Below, piece by piece: positions 1-33,926 of a stretch of 64,000 nt of DNA (within the stretch, counting starts at the first letter, position 1; each line of letters starts with the position of its first letter). The DNA is taken from positions 62,001-126,000 of the forward strand of contig NZ_ANOH01000095.1 of the NCBI RefSeq assembly GCF_000346505.1. Reading direction: 5' to 3'. The notes beneath the pieces are model-generated. The model searched no databases. It was not told where the DNA came from and saw only the letters and a program-made list of their open reading frames with translations. This DNA comes from Aporhodopirellula sallentina SM41 (GTDB lineage Bacteria > Planctomycetota > Planctomycetia > Pirellulales > Pirellulaceae). The position numbers and the translations under genes were made by a program.

Positions 1-634
1 ATCCGCCCCAGTTGCAGGAAACCAACCCGATCGGCACATCGAGTTCTTCGTACAATCGTGAACCGAAGAAGTAGCCTACCGCACTGAAGTTCAAAACCGA
101 TTCGGGAGTGCAAACGCTCCACGCATTTTTCACGTCGTCTTGGCCTTCCAACGCGATCGTCGCGGGAATTTCACAGAACCGGATTCGTGGACGGTCCGCT
201 TTCGCGACGTCTTCGGCAAAGTGATCGACGCCGAACCCACGCATCCGCCACTGCATGTTCGATTGACCAGAACAAATCCATACTTCGCCAACGTAAATGT
301 CATTCCACTCGATCCGATCCCCTGCCGAGGCGATCGTCAATTGGAACGGTCCACCTGCGGATGGCGTTTGCACGGACGCCCGCCAATTTCCGGCGGCATC
401 CGCAACGGTCGTCACGTCATCCTGCGACCAGGACACATCAATGGTCACGGTTTCGTTGGCAGCACTCTTCCCCCATATCGTGTTAGCAGTCTGCTGCTGC
501 AAAACCATGTGATCGCCAAAGATGCCGGCCACGCTCAGGGGCTGGGTATCGGCGGCGACCACACCGGTGATGTGGGTTAAACAAAAAAGCGCACAAGCCA
601 AGACGGCGTGCGTGACTCGGTAACGACAACGCAT
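1..634 (-). CDS. Sialate O-acetylesterase-like secreted esterase (3' end cut by window edge)
   Basis: The reading frame starts at the ATG at 634 and runs off the left edge, giving 211 residues. The N-terminus (MRCRYRVTHAVLACALFC, cleavage near VVAADTQ) is a signal peptide. It is followed by the family opening VAGIFGDHMVLQQ, then a beta-sandwich-like stretch, then WICSGQSNMQW, the GQSNM block carrying the nucleophilic serine of SGNH-type sialate O-acetylesterases. The protein probably deacetylates polysaccharides or sialic acids outside the cytoplasm; the substrate is inferred only from the family. Planctomycetes encode many such esterases. The catalytic Asp-x-x-His near the C-terminus would lie outside the window, so activity cannot be judged. 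Confidence 0.85.
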   Translation of the reverse strand, partial: MRCRYRVTHAVLACALFCLTHITGVVAADTQPLSVAGIFGDHMVLQQQTANTIWGKSAANETVTIDVSWSQDDVTTVADAAGNWRASVQTPSAGGPFQLTIASAGDRIEWNDIYVGEVWICSGQSNMQWRMRGFGVDHFAEDVAKADRPRIRFCEIPATIALEGQDDVKNAWSVCTPESVLNFSAVGYFFGSRLYEELDVPIGLVSCNWGG

Positions 635-9788: not shown

Positions 9789-9856
9789 CCCCCAGCAAGA
9801 TCAAAAGCATCCGCCCAGCCTAACCCCGGGCGGATAAATCGCCCCACCCCAAGCTT

Positions 9857-10107
9857 CCGTCCGGGCCTGCCCCGGCGGAAGAAACGCCCCACCCAAAGCT
9901 TCCGCCCGGGCTTGCCCCGGCGGAGCAAACAACTGACAGCTACCTCAACCCCACCACCATCCCCCCTCTCTCCGCCCGGGCTTGCCCCGGCGGCAAAAAC
10001 GCCCCACCCAAAGCTTCCGTCCGGGCCTGCCCCGGCGGAGCAAACAACTGACAGCTACCTCAACCCCACCACCATCCCCCTCTCTCCGTCCGGGCCTGCC
10101 CCGGCGG
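9857..10107. repeat. REP/BIME-like palindrome array, left of the RAYT-like gene
   Basis: Five copies of a 22-bp imperfect palindrome containing CCGGGCCTGCCCCGGCGG or its CTTG variant start at 9857, 9902, 9972, 10017 and 10086. Spacings alternate 45, 70, 45, 69 bp, so two kinds of spacer alternate as in BIMEs. The long spacer contains CAAACAACTGACAGCTACCT. The stem CCGGG/CCCGG closes a 5-nt loop. The array begins 69 bp after the ThuA stop and ends 25 bp before the RAYT-like start. Confidence 0.85.
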
Positions 10108-10132
10108 AAGAAACGCCCCGGAGCCTGATCGC

Positions 10133-10921
10133 ATGGAGTCGATCTACACAGAAGCCAACACCCGGGCGGCCTTCCAGCTCAATTGGTCAGTGTCCCTTTT
10201 CGGGAAAGAGCCACTCCCCTCCTCGGAACATTGGTACGATCGTCTCAAAACCGCGATCGATCCGGACGGCGTTCGCTTGCTATCGGCCGATCACCTCAAC
10301 GACAACACCTACCAGTTTCTCGTCAGCACCAAGCCCCACTGTTCTCCTTCGGCGATCGTCCGCAGCATCAAAGGGCGGTTGCAGTATTTGATTCGAGACG
10401 AGATCCCGAAAGCATTCCGACGCAACTACCACGTTCAAAGCCTCGGTGATGCCAAAGCCGCGACCCTCGATCGCTACGTTTCTCGGCAAACCGACAAACA
10501 CCCGATGGCAGATCCCGTCGTGCAACGCCGTCTAGACACGCTGCAATTCCACGACCCAACAATCGATTTGGCTCACCCCAACACGGGAACCTACGGCAGA
10601 TACCTGAATTCGCTTCAAATCGTGCTAGAGAATATCGATGGCTGGCGTGAGGTGCGAGAATCAATGCTGCGCCGAGTCCGGGGCGTCATTGTCAAATCCG
10701 CCATGAAGAAGCCCTGGCGATTGTCGAGAATCGGATTACTGAGCAATCACGTTCATATTCTTCTCGGAGGTTCGGTGACCGATTCACCGAGTTCGATTGC
10801 ACTATCGTTGATGAATAACATCGCATTCGTTTATGAGATGAAACCGATACTAAAATTCAGCTTCTACGCGGGGACGTTCGGAGGCTATGACCGCGGCGTG
10901 ACTCGGCGACCTCGGCTCTGA
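10133..10921 (+). CDS. IS200/RAYT-like (Y1 HUH) transposase-related protein
   Basis: A 262-residue protein that reads as two Y1-transposase-like halves. In the first, YQFLVSTKPHCSPSAIVRSI (about 60-79) sits where the HUH block and following helix belong, but the His-x-His is lost; SLGDAKAATLDRYVSRQTDKH (about 102-122) resembles the region of the catalytic tyrosine (Tyr114). In the second half, LLSNHVHILLGG (about 202-213) has an intact HUH pair, His206 and His208, and GTFGGYDRGV follows near the C-terminus. REP-associated tyrosine transposases act on single-stranded REP hairpins. This gene is flanked on both sides by REP-like arrays, as expected of a RAYT locus. No strong ribosome-binding site is visible. 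Confidence 0.75.
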   Translation: MESIYTEANTRAAFQLNWSVSLFGKEPLPSSEHWYDRLKTAIDPDGVRLLSADHLNDNTYQFLVSTKPHCSPSAIVRSIKGRLQYLIRDEIPKAFRRNYHVQSLGDAKAATLDRYVSRQTDKHPMADPVVQRRLDTLQFHDPTIDLAHPNTGTYGRYLNSLQIVLENIDGWREVRESMLRRVRGVIVKSAMKKPWRLSRIGLLSNHVHILLGGSVTDSPSSIALSLMNNIAFVYEMKPILKFSFYAGTFGGYDRGVTRRPRL

Positions 10922-11000
10922 TACGCTGGCTCCGCCGAGACAAGCTCGACGGAGGCCGGAGGGAGAGGGAGCCTCATTGGTAGCCACTCACTTGTGCCCC

Positions 11001-11136
11001 CGACCGGGACAAGCCCGGCGGAAGAAACGCCCAACCCCAAGCTTCCGTCCGGGCCTGCCCCGGCGGAGCAAACAACTGACAGCTACCTCAACCCCACCAC
11101 CATCCCCTCTCTCTCCGTCCGGGCTTGCCCCGGCGG
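11001..11136. repeat. REP/BIME-like palindrome array, right of the RAYT-like gene
   Basis: Three palindromes of the same type as the left array start at about 11001 (variant with GACAAG loop), 11045 and 11115, spaced 44 and 70 bp. The intervening spacers match those of the left array nearly base for base. The array ends 18 bp before the stop of the minus-strand gene at 11155. Confidence 0.85.
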
Positions 11137-11154
11137 AAGAAACGCCCAAAAGCC

Positions 11155-33828: not shown

Positions 33829-33926
33829 ACGAACCGTTGGCCCTCCGGTTACGCGGCGACGCCAACCAACCAGGGCGTTGCCCTGGGCTAAGCAAACGGA
33901 CGGGGAGTTGCCCCTGAGAGCTCCCC

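Follow-up and report, generated by a model that had tools for sequence, protein, structure and literature searches.

A tandem Y1 transposase gene and its flanking REP-like palindromes in Aporhodopirellula sallentina: a probable composite active site within one chain

The gene and its palindromes

The window, i.e., the whole 64,000-nucleotide stretch of Aporhodopirellula sallentina SM41 that was analysed (contig NZ_ANOH01000095.1, positions 62,001 to 126,000), carries a transposase-like gene with palindromes on both sides (Table 1). The 262-aa protein matches the Pfam family Y1_Tnp (43.4 bits against a cut-off of 23, E 4.5e-11), so the two-part Y1-transposase-like gene with one intact HUH motif that the first-pass annotation had read from the letters is well founded. 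Its sole HUH is NHVH (H206/H208) in the C-terminal half, and the equivalent N-terminal position reads TYQFLV. The genome holds one copy of the gene. RAYT-type enzymes are thought to spread small DNA hairpins through bacterial genomes, and the protein looks like an unusual one-piece relative of them.

Table 1. Features of the locus (positions in the window; modules in protein residues)
Feature	Position	Strand	Remarks
Hybrid palindrome	9856..9879	+	type A context on left, type B on right
Palindrome type A	9901..9924	+	CTAC = GTAG on minus strand at 9940-9943
Palindrome type B	9971..9994	+	
Palindrome type A, outer left end of core element	10016..10039	+	GTAG on minus strand at 10055-10058
Palindrome type B, adjoins start codon	10085..10108	+	
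Tandem-Y1 transposase gene	10133..10921	+	262 aa, ATG to TGA; Pfam, alignment, AlphaFold
N-module	residues ~1-126		Y115 and Q119 present, HUH absent
C-module	residues ~147-262		H206, H208; short terminal stub without Tyr
Degenerate palindrome type B, inverted, directly 3' of stop codon	10930..10954	-	
GTAG foot of inverted right-hand A hairpin	10980..10983	+	
Palindrome type A, inverted, outer right end of core element	11000..11021	-	
Palindrome type A of extra direct A-B unit	11044..11067	+	GTAG on minus strand at 11083-11086
Palindrome type B of extra direct A-B unit	11114..11137	+	

Eight flanking palindromes had been reported, five on the left and three on the right. The five on the left stand, but the right side has four, giving nine in total, and we take the one overlooked to be that at 10930, directly after the stop codon. 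The reported alternation of about 45 and 70 bp holds on the left, where the starts (9856, 9901, 9971, 10016, 10085) are 45, 70, 45 and 69 bp apart. In a search that allowed three mismatches, the pattern TCCGYCCGGGCYTGCCCCGGCGGA fitted seven of the nine palindromes with no more than one mismatch; in 100 shuffled versions of the window it matched 0 times. Four sites folded as single-stranded DNA (9856, 10085, 10930 and 11000) form hairpins with z values of -2.7 to -3.5; three of them have a one-base bulge in the stem and a five-base loop, while 10930 has a mismatch and no bulge.

The two types differ in their flanks: among the matches listed, the right flank on the plus strand is a block that ends with CTACC for type A (GGTAG on the minus strand) and one that ends with AACGCC for type B. 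An A and a B lying 67-70 bp apart make up an A-B unit. The inner core can be written A'(10016)-B'(10085)-gene-B(10930)-A(11000), i.e., with inverted ends, and further A-B units, in direct order, flank it on either side. The left array shares its direction with the outer right pair, and only the two inner right hairpins (10930 and 11000) are inverted. The gap between GTAG and hairpin is 15 nt in three direct A copies and 16 nt in the inverted A. The description of the arrays as BIME-type does not survive this layout, because mainly direct A-B units plus one hybrid are present rather than units of alternating orientation; a classical BIME is ruled out by the co-directional left array and outer right pair and by the direct A-B units.

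Inverted right-hand A hairpins, seen in the window (11000-11021) and at three other loci (L035, L072, L077), have a reversed loop (RCAAG) while their bulged base remains 5'; simple inversion of the left copies would not produce this.

Two modules with a predicted Y1-like fold

Compared with a profile built from eight single-module Y1 proteins, the N-terminal half scores 98.7% (E 1.7e-16) and the C-terminal half 98.2% (E 4.4e-14), and a profile alignment of the two halves with each other scores 74% (E 2.8e-5). An AlphaFold model made with alignment A2 (see below) has a pLDDT of 94.8 and a pTM of 0.91 and consists of two Y1-like modules. The predicted order in the N-module is strand-helix-strand-strand-helix-strand-helix; the C-module has the same predicted order, but its last helix is a four-residue stub where confidence falls. 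An earlier model from seven rows (pLDDT 79.0) has a similar order of elements and the same kind of structural matches. The structure prediction that the first-pass annotation had put forward as a check thus yields two Y1-like modules, each half being homologous to a Y1 domain.

The best solved structure for the C-module is the ISDra2 transposase TnpA (2xo6_D; Z 10.1, rmsd 1.9, 115 residues aligned). IS200/IS605-type transposases head the ranking of solved structures and TnpA_REP (4er8_A) stands lower, at Z 5.5, a position compatible with kinship to TnpA_REP. The Y1 fold is assigned to the C-module by this structure match and to the N-module by profile only.

Two other readings of the fold were set aside. 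Where a structure match extended over both modules, as with seryl-tRNA synthetase, HMG-CoA reductase, elongation factors and others, we attributed it to a widespread ferredoxin-like arrangement. A circularly permuted single Y1 domain was a candidate, since single-module Y1 proteins match the tandem profile as two pieces in swapped order; however, each half aligns alone with the Y1 domain, and the model has two modules.

Catalytic residues across homologues

Alignment A2 comprises 59 tandem proteins of full length drawn from 41 genomes, of which the window's is one: 39 from the family, plus G324 and G377 from a sample of the phylum. Inclusion required an open reading frame spanning profile positions ≤10 to ≥225 with more than 60 bits. 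This left out broken or partial copies (e.g., L041/L042, L082, L127, L134, L143 and L146-L148); L039 was kept though its C-terminal end is cut short, and the distant proteins L139-L142 and L099 were handled apart as set A4.

Six columns are invariant in 59/59 homologues: S65, G105, Y115, Q119, H206 and H208. The tyrosine motif is accordingly YxxxQ throughout and never YxxxNP, with the Y115-Q119 spacing of the YxxxQ of IS200 enzymes; according to PMC6006769, the H. pylori enzyme needs its Gln131 to transpose in vivo. The window protein reads Y---Q--KH, and 37/59 homologues have the second H of Y---Q--HH. At the positions that would form an HUH in the N-module, the first His is variable and the second is replaced by Gln in 50, Arg in 4 and Leu in 2 proteins, His being found in 3. 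The C-module shows the opposite loss, as YxxxQ follows its core in 0/59 homologues and any Tyr lies beyond the core in 2/59 (L131 and L137; L039 ends earlier). It had been proposed that the N-terminal HUH decayed while the C-terminal one stayed intact. The loss and the retention are both real, but the N-module has not merely decayed, since it gives the invariant Tyr and Gln.

Because Tyr and Gln of module one and HUH of module two are kept, and HUH of module one and YxxxQ of module two are lost, the losses affect one of the two possible composite sites and leave the second intact. Were each module to rely on its own residues, neither site would work and the four invariant residues would be left unexplained, which argues for a composite site. 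Set A4 lends further support: in all five of its proteins, the C-module helix still has the Tyr with Gln replaced by Trp, the N-module keeps Y---Q--HH, the C-module keeps HUH, and no HUH stands in line in the N-module.

IS200/IS605 transposases are described as homodimers with two hybrid sites that combine the Tyr of one unit with the HUH of the other (PMC2817692). From sequence, we consider it probable that the window protein is a single-chain Y1 (HUH-tyrosine) transposase with one composite active site, acting on the flanking hairpins, and that Tyr115 and the HUH would meet in that site within one chain. Identical residue conservation would be expected if the split site worked between two molecules, with tandem chains pairing as an obligate dimer of pseudo-dimers, and IS200/IS605 TnpA proteins do share their sites between chains (PMC2817692). 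However, one chain already supplies both halves and a second is unneeded, so we regard pairing of this kind as quite unlikely.

Selection bears on a further alternative. dN/dS is 0.10-0.26 in 8 of 9 homologue pairs tried; the ninth, which holds the window protein, is saturated at synonymous sites and gave no value. Purifying selection acts in the eight pairs, as it would on a domesticated protein that binds hairpins and has lost DNA cutting, and the loss of one of two active sites fits such a protein as well. Binding alone nevertheless leaves unexplained why 59/59 homologues retain, without variation, the four residues that make up the composite catalytic site, and domestication of this kind seems to us very improbable.

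Distribution of the gene family

The NCBIfam IS200 model matches 59/59 members at E 0.01 and the NCBIfam RAYT model (NF047646, REP_Tyr_transpos) matches 19/59. The window protein itself scores 36 bits with the IS200 model, under its cut-off of 55, and is unmatched by the RAYT model up to E 1.

Profile searches gave matches in at least 58/241 genomes of the family and at least 14/392 drawn from the phylum. They scored the best 10 (family) or best 6 (phylum) candidates per genome, so genes may be missed, a limit relevant to G188, and these tallies, like those of 80/392 and 108/241, include single-module Y1 genes and are not counts of the tandem gene. A first protein scan of genome contigs, before alignment A3, found no relatives; with A3, a closer alignment, the scan of genome contigs gave 17 loci, including ones in Rhodopirellula solitaria CA85 and Rubripirellula obstinata CECT 8602. 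A scan of plasmid sequences for relatives gave no match.

Two individual cases are worth recording. A homologue of 46% identity (L214) lies in a metagenome bin labelled Acidobacteria; if correct, this label would make it a non-planctomycete member. In G065 (L134, L196, L202), a second tandem-Y1 copy is split over two open reading frames (270 and 186 aa), with palindromes on both sides.

Hairpins around homologues

We called hairpins repeated when at least two alike lay within 600 nt of a gene. By this definition, 39/59 tandem genes have repeated hairpins, alike on both sides in 33. Controls gave far fewer: 1/97 segments of the window (0 on both sides), 0/34 segments from ten other loci in the genus and 0/59 shuffled flanks. 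The same scan of single-module Y1 genes, excluding the tandem L227, the long frame L244 and six short loci, found them in 9/29, on both sides in 8. Flanking hairpins are therefore a habit of the wider group that is stronger in the tandem form and not peculiar to it.

Stems vary between subfamilies, with 30 distinct five-pair tops; a stem was counted only if its five pairs all matched, so the pairing is there by construction. Loops are more uniform: RCRAG accounts for 178 of 480 five-base-loop detections and the same loop read backwards for 0, with detections that overlap and are not independent. In the flanks (excluding the last 60 nt of each gene), there are 234 detections of RCRAG hairpins, near 39/59 genes, versus 1 in 85 window segments (700 nt, the finding itself excluded); the other 20/59 genes have no RCRAG-loop hairpin within 700 nt. 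Outward orientation from the gene is seen in 160/234. TAGC occurs within 32 nt on the 5' side of 125 and on the 3' side of 33 of these 234 hairpins (per gene, on the 5' side in 25 and the 3' side in 16), and in homologues it mostly starts 14-21 nt 5' of the hairpin, most commonly 18-20 nt.

The genome also contains a single-module Y1 gene (L001, contig C121) of 161 aa with the motif YIRDQMEHH. Within 1 kb on both sides of it are five copies of another palindrome, of the type CCCAGGGC(AAC or GTT)GCCCTGGG, and a further copy of this CCCAGGGCGTTGCCCTGGG palindrome, with one mismatch, is at 33869 in the window.

The palindrome across genomes

With up to three mismatches, the pattern has 31 matches in the genome (8.19 Mb), and the reversed pattern has 0. 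Besides the window's seven, 24 matches lie on 13 other contigs, so the genome-wide count suggested in the first-pass annotation does find the palindrome elsewhere. The assembly consists of 491 contigs and several matches are at contig ends; the count is therefore probably a lower bound. A slightly wider pattern with at most one mismatch has 26 matches in the same genome. A-B units without a gene are scattered through it, for example on contigs C318, C236 and C46.

When two mismatches are allowed in a wider pattern, 12/60 genomes match, A. sallentina included, but the reversed pattern occurs once in each of 6/60, so single two-mismatch matches may be chance. With at most one mismatch, the palindrome is present in 11/241 genomes of the family, with 0 for the reversed pattern among the matches listed. 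A homologue at least 60% identical to the window protein is present in 9/241 (A. sallentina included), spread over seven genera. Eight of these nine genomes have the palindrome, versus 3/232 others (Fisher p 5.8e-12, in a test that assumes independent genomes, an assumption only partly true here, and for a palindrome defined from one of the nine). The repeat thus tracks the gene across genera, with 2-7 copies (at most one mismatch) in the other seven genomes that have both, versus 26 in A. sallentina. The association has exceptions in both directions. One genome (G143) has a 65% homologue without the palindrome, and three (G188, G008, G011) have the palindrome with the gene undetected, so the idea that the palindrome occurs only in genomes with the gene does not hold.

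In G011, which is rated 7% contaminated, two palindrome sites (L050) are nearly identical to sites in a genome of another genus (L187, G219), among the matches listed. Recent transfer or assembly contamination is possible there.

The same place in relatives

In two relatives (G009 and G003), matches to the two neighbour genes are ~245 and 141 bp apart, versus ~1.4 kb here. By eye, each gap holds a degenerate palindrome-like hairpin that the automatic scan called in neither; in the G009 gap, it called another hairpin. The alignment, too diverged to give exact ends, is consistent with either a gain of the gene/palindrome island here or its loss in G009 and G003.

This absence, like the inverted A-B ends, would suit an ordinary small autonomous insertion sequence of IS200/IS605 type with a fused transposase, whose ends are the palindromes. 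The YxxxQ motif, the IS200 model's matches to 59/59 members and the IS200/IS605-like fold point the same way. Such an element is hard to reconcile with a single gene copy here, with gene-free A-B units scattered in the genome, and with the divergence between copies elsewhere: 22 of 24 same-genome pairs are only 23-63% identical, the other two being 98.5 and 88.7%. Known IS200/IS605 members are, moreover, described in PMC2817692 as having no terminal inverted repeats. We judge an ordinary insertion sequence to be unlikely.

A separate multi-copy element was seen in G006 (L164-L178). It is ~303 bp long and bears terminal inverted repeats (AATGGCGTGGACTTAAGC); its boundaries could be placed in 14 of 15 copies, and most copies read have GAGCTCGGCTC on both sides. 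Inside are four hairpins and no gene, in the order A'-B'-B-A, as if the ends of a tandem-Y1 element had been joined. It does not enter our argument as a mobile form of those ends, because the terminal inverted repeats and the 11-base flank on both sides suggest another mobilising enzyme.

Proposed mechanism and its meaning

The single-chain transposase with a composite site, our preferred reading, could have arisen and could work as follows. An IS200-type Y1 transposase gene would have been duplicated and fused, making the protein a built-in dimer whose surviving hybrid site would join Tyr115 and Gln119 of module one with His206 and His208 of module two. The substrate would be a single-stranded hairpin, recognised by its CTTGY loop (complement RCAAG) and by a GTAG-containing foot ~15 nt 5' of the outer hairpin, and the protein would bind where the hairpin is exposed as single-stranded DNA, for instance at replication. 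With a metal held by His206, His208 and Gln119, Tyr115 would attack the strand near the GTAG foot or the hairpin base, and rejoining would proceed via a phosphotyrosine link. One site would allow one cut at a time, perhaps as in E. coli TnpA_REP, which appears monomeric (PMC6006769).

Through rounds of cutting and joining, A-B units would be duplicated next to the gene and some would end up at other places. We infer the DNA cutting, the position of the cut and the protein's part in spreading the units; the layout of the locus, the residue conservation and the co-occurrence of gene and repeat are observed. Tandem arrays can also grow by replication slippage, and no insertion event with exact ends was seen.

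Complementary loss in a fused dimer would be natural evidence, read from sequence, that Tyr and HUH work across the module boundary, and a one-chain system makes the cis/trans question of Y1 sites testable. If true, the proposal would point to more than one origin of REP-like hairpin systems from IS200-type enzymes, a matter of interest for the domestication of REPs and their transposases.

Comparison with known systems

Repeats with GTAG, and tyrosine transposase genes with flanking repeats, are already known from R. baltica (PMC3733652), and Quentin class 3, whose genes have atypical flanking hairpins in a REPtron-like arrangement, comes principally from Planctomycetes, Acidobacteria and Proteobacteria (PMC6006769). 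The arrangement of repeats plus gene is therefore not new in itself. No tandem Y1 family whose catalytic residues are split between modules turned up in the open PMC papers searched. It is an even call, in our view, whether these proteins are an undescribed single-chain family, i.e., a fused trans-acting Y1 dimer that decayed in a complementary manner to one composite site and, independently of the proteobacterial RAYTs, acquired its own REP-like hairpins, whose GTAG foot lies at a distance.

TIRYTs and their TIRtrons resemble the locus in that inverted repeats, which may be self-complementary and may recur elsewhere, enclose a tyrosine transposase gene; in the alignment described, RAYTs and TIRYTs all keep the catalytic Tyr and HUH (PMC3733652). 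Class 3 differs in motif (Y----Q there, Y---Q here), in length (~178 aa there, 262 aa here) and in its CnGA foot (PMC6006769). Quentin subclass 1.2 enzymes are ~148 aa long, generally without terminal hairpins, and were reported mostly from Cyanobacteria and Bacteroidetes (PMC6006769). Their Y---Q--HH type of motif is shared, and the genome's own single-module gene L001 has it too, but the window protein has Y---Q--KH and two modules.

The IS200/IS605 TnpA enzymes (Quentin class 1, e.g., IS608 and ISDra2) share YxxxQ, HUH (here in different modules) and the fold. They are homodimers of small ~150-aa chains with two sites, whereas here a 262-aa chain has, by residue content, one. Other differences are the inverted hairpin ends and the low and divergent copy number here, and instead of near-identical multiple whole copies there is one copy.

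The likeness to RAYT/TnpA_REP systems (Quentin class 2, REPtrons) is broad: a Y1 gene flanked by inverted palindromes, arrays beside the gene, scattered gene-free units, a GTAG tetranucleotide, a bulged stem, and pairing of gene with palindrome type. The differences are equally clear. The window protein is two fused modules with catalytic residues split between them; the motif is YxxxNP there (PMC6006769) and YxxxQ here in 59/59; GT[AG]G is directly 5' of the hairpin there and GTAG 15-16 nt away here; palindromes number >100 copies there and tens or fewer here; and mainly direct A-B units are present here. The first-pass annotation's view of a RAYT/REP locus is thus right about a Y1-like gene bracketed by REP-like palindromes and fails for a canonical RAYT, given YxxxQ, the unmatched RAYT model and IS200/IS605 structures that rank first. 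The locus appears to work like a RAYT/REP system, yet it is not a canonical RAYT, and by its motif and predicted fold it stands nearer to IS200/IS605 TnpA.
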